Of a stretch of 64,000 nt of DNA, positions 2,926-9,070 are shown piece by piece; within the stretch, counting starts at the first letter, position 1; each line of letters begins with the position of its first letter. The notes under the pieces are model-generated. The model was not told the origin of the DNA. It did no database searches and was given only the letters and a program-made list of their open reading frames with translations. The translations under genes were made by a program, and so were the position numbers. The DNA is from Chloroflexota bacterium (GTDB taxonomy: Bacteria > Chloroflexota > Anaerolineae > Anaerolineales > Villigracilaceae): contig JAKAKJ010000084.1 in assembly GCA_021824575.1 (NCBI GenBank), positions 1-64,000 of the forward strand, given 5' to 3'.

Positions 2926-4083
2926 TTAATGCGCTGTCCAATCGGGCTGACCGTTGTACGATGAAGTGTTGGTGAGTTGATCCACTTCGCGCGTGGAAAG
3001 CACCATCTCGTAAAGTTCCATGCCGGTGCCGTCAGCGCACGCCTGATTCTGGTTTGAAACCGGACATGCCTCGAACACAAGCCGCGTCCCGTCTGGCGAC
3101 CAAATTGGATCGCCTTTTATGTTGAGATTGACAGCCAGGCTTTTGAGCGTGCTGTCTTTTACACCAATCAAATCAATGCCAGATATTCCGCCGCGGTCCG
3201 AGCGCACCGCGATTTGCGTGCCATCCGGCGACCAGGCAGGCACACCGTTTATCCACTGGCTGTTGGTCAGACAATGAAAGTTGCTGCCATCGCGATTCAC
3301 CGCGCAGATGTTGGCGATGCTGGGCGATGTAAAAGACCGGAATGCGATCAAACTTCCATCGGGCGACCAGGCCGGGTCGGAATCAGGAGGCGCTTCATTT
3401 GTTAAACGCATAAGTCCGCTTCCGTCTGAAGAAATGAGATACAGGGCTGAGTTGACGCTTTCGCGGCTGCTCATGAAAGCAATGCTGTTTCCCACTGGCG
3501 ACCAGACCGGGTTCGTGTCGCCCGCGGGATCATCCGTCAAACGCGTCAGGCCGGAACCATCCAGGTTGACCACATAGATTTGAAGGGTGCCAGTCTGAAA
3601 AGATTCGAATGCGATTTGTCTGCCATCCGGCGACCAGGTTGGAGACGAATCGCGCCCTGGATCAGTGGTGATTCGCCTCGCGACGTTGGTGGCCGGGTCA
3701 ATTACATAAATGTCCGTATTATGATTTATGGTGGACGCATAAGCGATGAGTCTTCCATCGGGCGACCATTGCGGCGACTCTTCCTCGGAATCCCCGGTGG
3801 TCAATTGCCGTATGTCACTGCCATCTGCGTTCATCAGATAAAGCTTTTTCTTGCCGCTCTGTGCGGACACAAACACGATGTGCCCGGTCGCGGGAGGCGG
3901 CGGGGTGGGGGTCGGCCCGCTGTCAGTTGGCTTCTTCTTGTTGGCATTCGTGTTCGAATCCAGCGGCGACACACCTGCCGCGCCCGCCAGACCAGTCGCC
4001 GCGCCGCAGGAAGTCAATAACAGCGAGCTGGCGATTCCCAGGAAGAAAAGAACATGCCAAAATTTCAATTTGATTTTGTTCAT
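2926..4083 (-). CDS. TolB-like PD40 beta-propeller lipoprotein
   Basis: Repeated PxWSPDGxxIAFxS motifs; lipobox LLLTSCGA; start set at MNKIKLKFW. Confidence 0.85.
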   Translation of the reverse strand: MNKIKLKFWHVLFFLGIASSLLLTSCGAATGLAGAAGVSPLDSNTNANKKKPTDSGPTPTPPPPATGHIVFVSAQSGKKKLYLMNADGSDIRQLTTGDSEEESPQWSPDGRLIAYASTINHNTDIYVIDPATNVARRITTDPGRDSSPTWSPDGRQIAFESFQTGTLQIYVVNLDGSGLTRLTDDPAGDTNPVWSPVGNSIAFMSSRESVNSALYLISSDGSGLMRLTNEAPPDSDPAWSPDGSLIAFRSFTSPSIANICAVNRDGSNFHCLTNSQWINGVPAWSPDGTQIAVRSDRGGISGIDLIGVKDSTLKSLAVNLNIKGDPIWSPDGTRLVFEACPVSNQNQACADGTGMELYEMVLSTREVDQLTNTSSYNGQPDWTAH

Positions 4084-4282
4084 TGCTCTCCATCGCTTGA
4101 TTTGATTCATAATAAAATCAGCGTTGTCATTATACGCGTACGACAACGCCGATTGGTTTCCAGATTTGATAGCAGAGACAGGTATAAACTTTCGATGTTA
4201 ATTTGGTCGCGCAAAGTATTTGAAAGGTGTCGCCCAAAGGTCACAAAAATATCTCGTAATCGAAAGCTTTCATTCAGAACAA

Positions 4283-5182
4283 CTACTTTTCTTTTCGCTG
4301 TGAGCGCATTTGCCTGGCCTTATTCTGCAAATTCCTGAAATACTGCGTATCCGTAATTTCGGCAACCTGCGAGGCGCGATGCTGCTCGTTAATCTCGATG
4401 CGTAATTTGGCAATCTCCTCGCGCAGCTTCCTTTCGCGGATGTAACCGTCCAGCGCGGCAGAAGCCAGCAGGACCAGCGCGTCCAGCACATCGTCCGAGG
4501 CGAACGGGATAATCTTGCCGGTATCCGGGTCCTTGGCGTTGATCAATTGCAGGACGCCAATGACTTCCTTATCCTTGCCTTCCAATGGAAGCGTCAGGAA
4601 GGATTTGGAGCGATAGCCCGTATTCTTGTCGAATGCTTTCGTGCCCGAAAAGTCAAAGCCCGCGCTGGTTTCGTACGCATCACCCACGGCAACTTTCTTC
4701 CTCATCAGCGCAACGTATGTTGCAATGTTGGAGCGATTTTCCGAGCCATCTTCGTTATACAAGGACAGGGGCGGGAACGTGATCTCGTTTCCGCTGGTCC
4801 CGCCCATGTTAACGTTCAAGGACAAATTGCGGACGATCACAAAGCGCAGTGTGTTGTCTTCCAGCAGATATAACGTCCCGGCATCTGCGCCCGTTACGTT
4901 CTGGGCCTCGACCACGAGTGACTCGAGCAGACGATCGAAATCCCTTTCGGCTGACAGTGCAACGCCGACGGGGATCACCTTTCTCAAAAGCTGCAATTGT
5001 TTGTAGCGGAAGGCCACGCCGCGTCCCATTGCATCAACGACCCGCGCCAATTGACCGATATCATCGGGCCGGCCAAGCAGGTCGGCCAGGAGGGCGGAAT
5101 TGTAATCTCCCTGCTCAACTGTGTTGACAGCCTGCATGATGCGTTTCAACGGAAGCTGCTCTTTGGAATTTGAATCTGTCAT
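4283..5182 (-). CDS. GAF domain-containing sensor with C-terminal coiled-coil tail
   Basis: GAF-like region (ERDFDRLLESLVVEAQNVTGADAGTLYLLEDNTLRF...GVLQLINAKDPDTG) and tail KLRIEINEQHRASQVAEITDTQYFRNLQNKARQMRSQ. Confidence 0.8.
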   Translation of the reverse strand: MTDSNSKEQLPLKRIMQAVNTVEQGDYNSALLADLLGRPDDIGQLARVVDAMGRGVAFRYKQLQLLRKVIPVGVALSAERDFDRLLESLVVEAQNVTGADAGTLYLLEDNTLRFVIVRNLSLNVNMGGTSGNEITFPPLSLYNEDGSENRSNIATYVALMRKKVAVGDAYETSAGFDFSGTKAFDKNTGYRSKSFLTLPLEGKDKEVIGVLQLINAKDPDTGKIIPFASDDVLDALVLLASAALDGYIRERKLREEIAKLRIEINEQHRASQVAEITDTQYFRNLQNKARQMRSQRKEK

Positions 5183-5243
5183 GCGAAAGTACCATCTGCG
5201 ATCTTGTCGAAGAGATAATCAACCTTTGAAAGATTCTATCAAA

Positions 5244-5271
5244 GAATTCCCCGCCAAGAGGCGGGGAATTC
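5244..5271 (-). terminator. Hairpin downstream of the HAMP sensor gene
   Basis: GAATTCCCCGCC-aaga-GGCGGGGAATTC perfect 12-bp stem just beyond the stop at 5274. Confidence 0.65.
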
Positions 5272-5273
5272 CA

Positions 5274-6374
5274 TTATTTCTTTTCTTCTTTATTTGTAGG
5301 CGGCTGATCTTTGAAACGACTCCGCATATCCTGAACTTTCGATCGCAAATCCTGGAAGAAATCGCTGTCCACGATTTCCTGCACCTGCGTCTCCAGCTTG
5401 GAATGATCAATCATGATTTCCAGTTGGGCCACGCGTGCGCGCAAGGCTTGTTCACGGGTATGTACCTTTCCGACCATTAATTCGAACACATTGGCAAGTT
5501 TATCCACTTCATCCTGCACACGAGTGGAATATAACTTGGAGAAATCCAAGTCATAATCGCCGCCGCCGATGCGGTCTGCCAGATTGGTCAATTGCAAAAC
5601 GGGCCGCGTCACGCTGGCTGCGACCAAACCAACCACGATGATTAACAGCAGCAAGGCGCCCCCAAAAACCAGCAGCGTGCTGCGCCGCACATTATTCTGC
5701 AGTTGAATCACATTGGCCGCGCACATGTCAACGCCCACTGCGCCGACCGGCTGGTCTGCCGAGTTGTAGATCGGCGCATACCCGGAAAGCCATGTGCCCC
5801 ATTGATCAGACCAAAGCTGCGTCTCCACGCCAGGCTCCTTGACGCCAGCCAGCATCGTTGGCGAGAGACCGTCAGCCCAGGTGTAGGCTTCGCCCAATGC
5901 AGGACGGCTGGAAGGCGGTATCTGACAGTCACTCAATGTACCGGACTTGTGGCTGGTTGGGGCGGCCGTTGAACCGGGCGGAAGTGCCGCGCTGACCACA
6001 AAATGCACCCGGTCCGTTTCGCCGGGAACCTGCACATACGTATAAACCCCGGAGGCCTTCGGGTTGGTAGCCTTGACCGAACGCAGCCAATTGGCGATCT
6101 GAGTATAGGTGGCATCATCAATCTGCCCGTGCAGGAACAGGTTCGTATGTTCATCCCCATTGATCCCGGCCGCGGCGGTCTCCGCAGTGGCGAGCAGATC
6201 GCGGCGCAGGTTTTGCATCATCATGTTGGTGACGAAGTTATCCAGCCATACGTAAAGCGCGGCAAACGAAATTAGAACCAGCACAGCCAATCCGGCGATC
6301 AATTTGGTGCGGAGGCTGATGAAAACAGTGCGTTTGCCGCTTTTCTTTGTTATGGGTTCAATGGTCTCGCTCAT
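5274..6374 (-). CDS. Membrane sensor with extracytoplasmic domain, HAMP domain and C-terminal coiled-coil tail
   Basis: N-terminal TM (LIAGLAVLVLISFAALYVWL), second TM (LLVFGGALLLLIIVVGLVAASV), HAMP (TRPVLQLTNLADRIGGGDYDLDF), tail QLEIMIDHSKLETQVQEIVDSDFFQDLRSKVQDMRS. Confidence 0.8.
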   Translation of the reverse strand: MSETIEPITKKSGKRTVFISLRTKLIAGLAVLVLISFAALYVWLDNFVTNMMMQNLRRDLLATAETAAAGINGDEHTNLFLHGQIDDATYTQIANWLRSVKATNPKASGVYTYVQVPGETDRVHFVVSAALPPGSTAAPTSHKSGTLSDCQIPPSSRPALGEAYTWADGLSPTMLAGVKEPGVETQLWSDQWGTWLSGYAPIYNSADQPVGAVGVDMCAANVIQLQNNVRRSTLLVFGGALLLLIIVVGLVAASVTRPVLQLTNLADRIGGGDYDLDFSKLYSTRVQDEVDKLANVFELMVGKVHTREQALRARVAQLEIMIDHSKLETQVQEIVDSDFFQDLRSKVQDMRSRFKDQPPTNKEEKK

Positions 6375-7105
6375 ATATGGCCTCCGACAAATGATGAAAG
6401 TGCATTGCGAACAAATTCATGATCTTCTTTTAAACGATATACATCCAAGTATAACCCATGCACCAGGTCAACGATATCCAGATTGGCGCTTTTGATGCCA
6501 GCAGATGAGGGAATCAAGATCAAGTGCATGGGTCGGGGAGATTCATCTTTCAGGGCTGCCGGGTCAATGTAACTTACATCCTCGATCATGACAGGTTCCA
6601 TGAACGGAACCGGCAAAATAATGCCGCCGCATTGACGATGGAACTGCAAACGTCTCTCATCGGCCAGACGGTCTGCTTCGGATTTCGCGTCCACCGAACG
6701 CTCGACTTCGACGAGATAACCAATCGAGGCGGATTTGCCAAATTGCCGCGCGTCCAGATCGAGTTGCTCCAGTGTCTGTTTCACCAGCCATTTGCCCAGT
6801 CCCTGTCCGCGCACTTTATTTGTTAAACCGATATATGCGCCGTGACCAAAATCCCGCGTGATGATGTAGCTGAACACGCGCAGTCCAACCCATTCTTCAT
6901 TTTGCTTAACCAGCCAAACGTGATCAAACGTGTTGGGATGCGATGGATGTCTCTGCTGTGCGCAAGCGCGGATATATGGAACATAACGGTGGTCTTCAGG
7001 AAAAATCTTTAGAAAGAGTTCGCAGGCAATATCCAAAAGGGGTGAATCGGCGCCAATGACCTCATGCAGGCACGCGCCGTTTGGACCATGTTTTTCAAGC
7101 GGCAT
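6371..7105 (-). CDS. GNAT-family N-acetyltransferase-like protein
   Basis: GNAT acetyl-CoA-binding-like motif NKVRGQGLGKWLVKQTLEQ; start set at MPLEKHGPNG; overlaps the following gene start by 4 nt. Confidence 0.6.
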   Translation of the reverse strand: MPLEKHGPNGACLHEVIGADSPLLDIACELFLKIFPEDHRYVPYIRACAQQRHPSHPNTFDHVWLVKQNEEWVGLRVFSYIITRDFGHGAYIGLTNKVRGQGLGKWLVKQTLEQLDLDARQFGKSASIGYLVEVERSVDAKSEADRLADERRLQFHRQCGGIILPVPFMEPVMIEDVSYIDPAALKDESPRPMHLILIPSSAGIKSANLDIVDLVHGLYLDVYRLKEDHEFVRNALSSFVGGHI

Positions 7106-7712
7106 CCACGCGCTCCGAAACAACGGGCCAGCCCGTCCAGTGATCGGCAAAAGCGTAGAGGTCCCACCAGGCACGCGGCAACACCGGTACAAGGTCCAGC
7201 CAGACGTGCTTCATCTTTTCTGCAAACTGCGGATTCAGAAATGACAACGAGGGACAGTTCTCGCCCAACTCCCATTCCAATTCATCGCGATGATTCAGCG
7301 TGGGAAGCAGCGGGAAAGTGCGGCAGTCCAATGGATTGTGATCGTGGATGCCGCACTGCAAGTTTTCCTTCAAGAACGGACAGGGCTTGCCGAGATCCAA
7401 CATGCCGACCTCGATGGTTGTTTCGGAATCGAGTGGAATTGACCAGATGCGAAAGAGTTCAGTCGAGACGCCGGTCTTCTCGATAATGTATTCCATCTCA
7501 AAGGGAAGCAGCACCACGATGGGACTGGCGATGTCGCGAGATTGCATGTGGCGCATGCCCGCGCGCGGACAGCACCGCGCCTGGCACAATTCAAGACATT
7601 TCAAATTGCTGGACGGGATGGATTTTTCCCGTTCGAGGATCTGGTCAAAACGCTTAAACCAGTCCCTCTTGAGTTGTTCGATGTGAGCTGATTCCAAAAT
7701 GACTCCTAACAC
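7095..7712 (-). CDS. YkgJ-family cysteine cluster protein (putative metal/Fe-S binding)
   Basis: CLELCQARCCP ... GKPCPFLKENLQCGIHDHNPLDCRTFP cysteine pattern. Confidence 0.75.
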   Translation of the reverse strand: MLGVILESAHIEQLKRDWFKRFDQILEREKSIPSSNLKCLELCQARCCPRAGMRHMQSRDIASPIVVLLPFEMEYIIEKTGVSTELFRIWSIPLDSETTIEVGMLDLGKPCPFLKENLQCGIHDHNPLDCRTFPLLPTLNHRDELEWELGENCPSLSFLNPQFAEKMKHVWLDLVPVLPRAWWDLYAFADHWTGWPVVSERVDAA

Positions 7713-7717
7713 TAAAA

Positions 7718-9070
7718 TTAGAATTCAATTCCATCCAGAGCACTCTTACGGCGCGGACGTGTCAACCGCCAGCCCAGCAAACTTTGATCATAATTTTTCC
7801 GCAGGCGGATGGCAAACAAAATAGCTATCAACGAAGCTAGAATAGCCATGCCAAGATAAACGTATAGCTTCAAGTCCGGCGAGATGAAGCCGCTGGTGCT
7901 GAGGAAAAGTAAAAATCCAAGCACGAGCGAGCCAATGATAGTGGAAATATCATAAAAATAACGATCAATCATCACGGCAACACGGCCGCGGCGTTCATCA
8001 GGGACAAGGTTCTGCAGGGACTTGCGCGCCGGTTCATCCCACGATTGCTGGACGAGCCGCCCAAGATAACGGGCAATCGCCGCGCCGTAAACGCCGGGAA
8101 CAGCAATCGCCATCCCCCCGCCCAAAGCCAGGGCAATCGGCTGGATGATGAACGAACTTTTCAATCCGATCTTTTCCAGATAACGATTGGAAATAAAAGC
8201 CTGGACCAGCAGTGTGCTGATGATCAAAATAATCTTGAAACTTCCGTAAAAGGTTTGGAATTGAAGCGGATTTTTGGAGACGGCCTGGTCCACCGAAGAC
8301 AGGAAGTGATATTCGATGACTGTAAACGCCAGCCCCGTGAGCAGCATACACACTGCCAGAAAACTAAAGATTGGCACATTCTTGATGTAATCCGCGCCAA
8401 CGCTGATCGTTTGTTTAAGATCGAATGTTTTTTCGTGTGACTGGCGGGCATTCACGGTCACTCTGGAGAAGGCCATTTCGAGGATCAGCAGGCCGATCAA
8501 TAAAACCACGGCTCCGATCGGCAAAAGCGAAGGCGGATCGCCGCCGCTCCTTTGCAGAATCCAGCCGGAAAGAGCCGCGAGACCGTTTCCCAGGATCGAG
8601 CCAATGGCCGTACCCATCAGAATGACCGGATAGAGTCGTTTGGCTTCCGCGGCATTGTACAAATCGTTGACCATGGCCCAAAACGCCAGTGGAAAGATGG
8701 CATAGAATTGATCGGTCAAAATGTAGAGCAAAGTGTAAGAGAACCAATCTGGCGCGCCAATGGCAAAAACAAAACGCAAAATGATGTACAGGATGGCAAA
8801 GCCAATGGTCAGCCACTTCACCAGCTTAAGGCGCTCCATTCGGTCTACAGCCATGGCGTACATGCCTGCCGTGAAAAGGGAAATCACCATGTCCACGATC
8901 CACAACCAGACTATATTGTTTGGGCCGACCTTGCTGACAAATCCACCCGTTGCGATTACATCCGATAATTCCAGGACAAGCGTGGTCACCGCAAGCACCG
9001 CAAGGAGGGAAAAGACCAGCTTGCGCTCTTCGGGCCTGACGTTCAAAATTTGAGAATGTCCGAGGCTCAT
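7718..9070 (-). CDS. Npt1/Npt2 (ATP/ADP translocase)-like multi-TM transporter
   Basis: About 12 hydrophobic helices; FWAMVNDLYNAAEAKRLYPVILMGTAIGSILGNGLAAL resembles NTT-like MFS proteins. Confidence 0.6.
   Translation of the reverse strand: MSLGHSQILNVRPEERKLVFSLLAVLAVTTLVLELSDVIATGGFVSKVGPNNIVWLWIVDMVISLFTAGMYAMAVDRMERLKLVKWLTIGFAILYIILRFVFAIGAPDWFSYTLLYILTDQFYAIFPLAFWAMVNDLYNAAEAKRLYPVILMGTAIGSILGNGLAALSGWILQRSGGDPPSLLPIGAVVLLIGLLILEMAFSRVTVNARQSHEKTFDLKQTISVGADYIKNVPIFSFLAVCMLLTGLAFTVIEYHFLSSVDQAVSKNPLQFQTFYGSFKIILIISTLLVQAFISNRYLEKIGLKSSFIIQPIALALGGGMAIAVPGVYGAAIARYLGRLVQQSWDEPARKSLQNLVPDERRGRVAVMIDRYFYDISTIIGSLVLGFLLFLSTSGFISPDLKLYVYLGMAILASLIAILFAIRLRKNYDQSLLGWRLTRPRRKSALDGIEF

Follow-up and report, generated by a model that had tools for sequence, protein, structure and literature searches.

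Within the window, that is, the whole stretch of 64,000 nucleotides that was analysed, two adjacent genes on the minus strand encode sensor proteins which end in the same peptide. The first (4283–5182) encodes a protein of 299 aa with a HAMP-like segment, a putative GAF domain of the cyclic nucleotide (cNMP) type (Pfam GAF, 31.5 bits) and the C-terminal module that is called the tail here. The second (5274–6374) encodes a membrane sensor of 366 aa, in which a transmembrane (TM) segment, an extracytoplasmic sensor domain, another TM segment and a HAMP domain (Pfam HAMP, 30.1 bits) precede the tail. Profile matches placed the tail at residues 249–297 of the GAF protein (4292–4438), 2 aa from the C-terminus, and at residues 307–355 of the HAMP protein (5310–5456), 11 aa from the C-terminus. 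The neighbouring genes on the same strand encode a tandem class III cyclase of 547 aa (340–1983; Pfam Guanylate_cyc, E=1e-34, in two stretches), a PD40 beta-propeller lipoprotein (2926–4146), which is a conserved neighbour adjoining the GAF-tail gene, a GNAT-like protein (6371–7192; Pfam Acetyltransf_1, E=6e-4), which is a conserved neighbour upstream of the HAMP-tail gene, and a TLC/NTT-like membrane transporter (7718–9070; Pfam TLC, 43 bits). A short solute-binding lipoprotein (276 aa, 1943–2773) contains only the first part of SBP_bac_5; a broken gene is an improbable explanation, since about 14 loci have this short form next to the cyclase.

At the left edge, the plus strand carries the 3' part (1–288) of wH3, a small winged-helix-like gene that follows an ATPase gene; its end was taken from the alignment with a sister genome (L057). 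Bases 1–257 of the window are the end of another contig of the source genome (G000 C45 1–257) in reverse, with 99.2% identity over 257 bp, and both stretches are contiguous in L057. The overlap indicates that the two contigs are neighbours in the genome and that the cluster was split by the assembly. The locus to the left of the window therefore comprises wH3, a MinD-like ATPase, a cNMP-binding-tail protein, a PrsW-like protein, a PD40 lipoprotein, an anti-sigma factor and a sigma factor, as well as, on the opposite strand, another ATPase and the winged-helix gene that belongs to it (wH16). In the source family, a sigma factor gene and an anti-sigma-like gene regularly occur as a pair in the cluster (L006 5242–6347).

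The initial annotation proposed that the C-termini of the two sensors align without gaps, and this was borne out by BLASTP (53 aa, 38% identity, 68% positives, E=5e-10), in which the C-terminal match was the only one between the two proteins. The ungapped BLOSUM62 score of the two tails was 101, compared with a maximum of 62 in 100,000 full shuffles and of 68 in 100,000 shuffles that kept the heptad phase. Because the heptad-keeping shuffles stay below the observed score, the likeness goes beyond a shared coiled-coil composition. The refuting outcome that the initial annotation had named, mere generic coiled-coil similarity, was thus not what emerged. The description of the two sensors as otherwise unrelated does not hold entirely, as residues 11–52 of the GAF protein contain a HAMP-like stretch (24.1 bits, below the Pfam cut-off of 25), which makes both look like HAMP-type signalling proteins. 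Two more proteins of the source genome carry the tail, a PrsW-like/GAF protein (C4:16036) and the cNMP-binding protein (C45:1384), bringing the number to four, and full-length relatives of the HAMP-tail sensor with the same tail were found in Cyanobacteria (L160, L172 and L173).

The tail is 49 residues long and has a two-part anatomy, with a first half showing a clear heptad pattern and a predicted short second helix. Among 119 non-redundant tails, the conserved positions were R1, E2, L5, L12 (99%), I14, I16, D17 (94%), V25, I28, T29, [YF]33, F34 (90%), L37 (95%), A41 and R45 (96%, the remainder being K). In AlphaFold2 models of both window proteins, a long helix is predicted to run to about position 30 of the tail and to break at [DE]-[TS] before a second helix. 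For the GAF-tail protein, the long helix covers residues 231–277, the break 278–279 and the second helix 280–298, with fair confidence there (pLDDT 73–82); for the HAMP-tail protein, the helices cover residues 289–336 and 338–355 on either side of the break, with low confidence.

The profile search and the survey of preceding domains that had been proposed as a check returned the tail in many genomes and behind many types of input. Pfam domains before it included dCache, 4HB_MCP, CHASE3, CHASE2, HAMP, GAF, receiver, HisKA, PAS, cNMP-binding, PrsW and ECF-S-like domains, and additional PAS-like and Cache-like sequences were judged by eye. Among 178 distinct tail proteins, 167 have no more than 40 residues after the tail (median 5), which is in line with the suggestion of a shared output or docking module. 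The exceptions include four ORFs that run into an ATPase (a fifth, L223, has a weak tail, E=4.5e-4), three that run into an alpha/beta hydrolase and a few that end in other ways. In the 32 tails scanned, no match to a Pfam or NCBIfam model exceeded the curated cut-off, the best of the scattered weak matches being to a coiled-coil model (E=1.8e-4), in line with the earlier remark that no named domain was known for the tail. No PDB match to the tail was found below E=0.25, and no description of a named tail, or of a pairing of the ATPase with sensors, was found in the open-access literature. Judged from these sequences, the tail is probably an unnamed output module at the end of many kinds of sensors in at least seven phyla.

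Two of these architectures have features of their own. The three proteins that continue into a hydrolase are HisKA-receiver-GAF-tail proteins in which the hydrolase is complete (L110 7455–10004, L123 7617–10184 and L130 7846–10368). In the PrsW-GAF-tail protein (L005 6813–8195, from contig C4 of the source genome, and L038), the PrsW-like membrane domain has QQ where the protease has EE, and it resembles an inactive protease that now serves as a membrane component.

Solid matches to the tail profile were obtained in 49 of 100 genomes of the source family, in 51 of 400 sampled Chloroflexota genomes, which represent several classes, and in 102 of 242 sampled cyanobacterial genomes. A scan of GTDB species with a five-row alignment as the query also detected it in Cyanobacteria, Rokubacteria, Desulfobacteraceae, Thermoleophilaceae, Rubrobacter, Trueperaceae, Planctomycetia and a metagenome-assembled genome (MAG) of Bacillota. 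Since several of these contigs come from MAGs, single assignments may be wrong, but the set from Cyanobacteria is large, and some of its genomes are assembled in very few contigs.

The gene most constantly found near the tail encodes a MinD-like ATPase with the motif HS[FY]RGGTGKS. It scored above the cut-off for AAA_31 (62 bits), ParA (55) and CbiA (47), and the nearest solved structure was MinD (1hyq, E=9e-23). In the 16 aligned members, the RGGTGK[ST] motif has an invariant Arg in the place of the signature lysine of the deviant Walker A motif (KGGxGK[ST]), which is why the name MinD-like is used.

When the ATPase was scored in the same genome sets (E<=1e-40, or 1e-60 in Cyanobacteria), its presence followed that of the tail closely. 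In the 400 Chloroflexota genomes, 48 had both, 3 the tail only, 1 the ATPase only and 348 neither (tail 51, ATPase 49; Fisher p 3e-57, ignoring relatedness). The corresponding numbers were 45, 4, 1 and 50 for the 100 genomes of the source family (tail 49, ATPase 46; Fisher p 2e-22, ignoring relatedness) and 97, 5, 3 and 137 for the 242 Cyanobacteria (tail 102, ATPase 100; phi 0.93; Fisher p 4e-57, ignoring relatedness). The counts within the family indicate that tail and ATPase are gained or lost together at short range, and this patchy spread, together with the replicate in a second phylum, argues against simple co-inheritance. The ATPase was also present in 15 of 16 tail genomes outside the Chloroflexota, 8 of the 16 being Cyanobacteria. 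Tail genomes that lacked it included three Chloroflexota (G205, G376 and G440), five Cyanobacteria (G500, G559, G572, G646 and G699) and the Rokubacteria MAG, and draft assemblies may partly account for this.

The two genes are also physically linked. For 32 tails in distant Chloroflexota loci, an ATPase of the clade was located within 8 kb in 18 and within 300 bp in 7, compared with a chance expectation of well under one, given about two ATPase copies in 3–6 Mb. Directly adjoining tail and ATPase genes were found in Desulfobacteraceae, Rubrobacter, Thermoleophilaceae, Planctomycetia and Coleofasciculus loci as well. Five cyanobacterial ORFs (L216, L219, L220, L221 and L223) combine REC or HisKA-REC, HAMP, tail and ATPase in one chain, and no tail-like stretch was found inside stand-alone ATPases. 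Two antisense ORF clusters (c19 and c20), considered as variable neighbours, turned out to be artefacts of the genes for the ATPase and the cNMP-tail protein. The same loci also contain ATPase paralogues with an altered Walker A motif (L111 3463–4257, L114 5214–5966, L116 5358–6095, L120 6363–7190, L131 4944–5732, L045 5912–6712 and L055 1498–2250), mostly near a canonical ATPase, a position that suggests a heterodimer with a changed site.

We are highly confident that the tail and the ATPase are parts of a single system. What the fusions prove is linkage rather than docking; that the tail serves as the output of the sensors by docking directly on the ATPase of this clade and switching it is the explanation we consider probable. 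In the mechanism that we infer, which includes the physical docking and its direction, a role for R45, dimerisation and the final effector, the inputs would be extracytoplasmic ligands, cyclic nucleotides or phosphorelay receivers. A conformational change would be relayed by HAMP or GAF to the first half of the tail, a parallel coiled coil, and from there reach the conserved helix break T-[DE]-[TS] and the short amphipathic helix [YF]F-x2-L-x3-A-x3-R with its near-invariant Arg. This second helix would dock on the dimeric HS[FY]RGGTGKS ATPase and alter its nucleotide state, in the way that ParA/MinD ATPases respond to partner peptides, which are a general principle there (PMC10241942). The ATPase, with the small winged-helix protein, would then act on an effector, for which the membrane transporters encoded nearby are plausible candidates. 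If this is correct, sensors with HAMP, GAF, receiver or cNMP-binding domains and no recognisable output would gain both an output and a named partner, and the MinD-like ATPase would be a common signalling end point in Cyanobacteria and Chloroflexota, cultured species included. It would also give cyclic nucleotides and phosphorelays a connection to ATPases of a family that is otherwise known for positioning cargo.

The arrangement resembles the known pairs of ParA/MinD ATPases and partners (MinD-MinE, ParA-ParB, ParC and PpfA), in which a MinD-like ATPase is tied to partners that share a short charged terminal peptide; the tail is likewise a charged terminal peptide with a conserved basic residue, R45 or otherwise K. 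However, the known peptides are mostly N-terminal, whereas the tail is C-terminal and 49 aa long, its carriers are many kinds of sensors from at least seven phyla, and the ATPase has an invariant Arg for the signature Lys and is often followed by a winged-helix gene. TadZ/CpaE is a receiver domain fused to a ParA-like ATPase, and the cyanobacterial fusions similarly join a receiver and a MinD-like ATPase in one chain. In the latter, however, the receiver is separated from the ATPase by HAMP and the tail, and the system consists mostly of separate genes with other inputs, with no pilus context seen. Methyl-accepting chemotaxis proteins share the Cache/4HB-HAMP input and a helical cytoplasmic end, but no MCP signalling domain was detected by Pfam in the tail proteins, and the end is 49 aa long.

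The same co-occurrence, adjacency and fusions would also fit the reverse relation, in which the ATPase positions or clusters the sensors and the tail is a cargo-adaptor peptide rather than an output. ParA/MinD ATPases do position chemotaxis clusters via partner peptides, ParC/PpfA serving chemoreceptor arrays (PMC10241942). This would, however, leave sensors that possess only the tail (REC-HAMP-tail, cNMP-tail and Cache-HAMP-tail) without any output, and the receiver domains in many tail proteins suggest that a signal is passed to the tail; we therefore regard the reverse relation as unlikely, while giving it more weight than the other alternatives. It is less probable again that the tail touches another member of the system, the winged-helix protein or a transporter, and is linked to the ATPase indirectly. 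Genes of the wH3/wH16 type do follow the ATPase gene in Chloroflexota and some Cyanobacteria, and transporters of the TLC, APC and SulP types lie within 1.5 kb in 34, 13 and 5 loci, respectively. Nevertheless, among the neighbours seen, it was the ATPase alone that was followed together with the tail in every phylum examined, and tail fusions were seen with the ATPase but not with a winged helix or transporter.

A generic coiled-coil end for dimerisation or stabilisation, or an S-helix, would account for the heptad pattern and the weak coiled-coil matches in single-sequence Pfam scans, but is very improbable, given that heptad-preserving shuffles fall short of the score, that conservation is strong at polar positions (D17, T29 and R45) and at the aromatic F34 and that the tail is almost always missing from genomes that do not have the ATPase. 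The S-helix is defined by an ERT signature in its central heptad and by its location between two signalling domains (PMC1592074). The tail is similar in being helical, with about 40 residues as a coiled coil after HAMP, GAF or PAS; it differs in the extra conserved second helix, in the near absence of ERT (1 of 213 tails) and in its terminal position, and identity with the S-helix was rejected on the last two. Docking on the tandem cyclase, 2.3 kb away, which had been put forward as a candidate partner, is slightly less credible still. The cyclase is in the same cluster in many Chloroflexota loci and adjoins tail genes in several, but this linkage is found in only part of the Chloroflexota, and it was not seen beside tail genes in the cyanobacterial, Rubrobacter, Planctomycetia or Desulfobacteraceae loci, whereas the ATPase tracks the tail by gene order, profile and fusions across phyla. 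The cyclase was therefore rejected as the docking partner on its distribution.

The GAF and cNMP-binding inputs of tail proteins instead make the cyclase a likely source of messenger. By sequence, the GAF domain in the window was nearest to those of PDE5 (E=2e-11), PDE2 and the cyanobacterial cyclase CyaB2 (E=5e-10), and CyaB2 (1ykd) was also the best Foldseek match of the GAF-tail protein, so that by sequence and predicted fold it is a putative cNMP-type GAF closest to the PDE/CyaB group; the tail protein on C45 has a cNMP-binding domain (90.6 bits). In the simplest reading, the cyclase is a candidate second-messenger source for both proteins: cAMP or a similar messenger made at 340–1983 would be read by the GAF-tail and cNMP-binding-tail proteins.

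Regarding the effector, the raw counts of loci with a transporter gene no more than 1.5 kb from a gene for the tail or the ATPase were 34 for the TLC/NTT-like type (the window among them), 13 for the APC type and 5 for SulP-STAS-cNMP. The winged-helix profile is akin to the C-terminal extension of some cyanobacterial ATPases (L172 and L173) and to an internal stretch of an APC-type permease whose gene adjoins that of the ATPase, with hhalign probabilities of 93–97%, and only 25% for the permease against wH3, in shallow alignments. This kinship is tentative; on this reading, the adaptor would occur alone, fused to the ATPase and inside the permease. Transporters near the ATPase, together with the winged-helix relations, suggest transport as the effector of the tail-ATPase system, and we put forward control of transporters only as a possibility. 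The wider proposal, an undescribed multi-phylum pathway in which a C-terminal tail common to one- and two-component sensors switches a MinD-like ATPase, which then controls transporters via a winged-helix adaptor, is equally tentative. The SulP members are fusions of a sulfate permease, STAS and a cNMP-binding domain that adjoin tail, ATPase or tail-ATPase genes (L220 5856–8105, L216, L219, L221 and L166).
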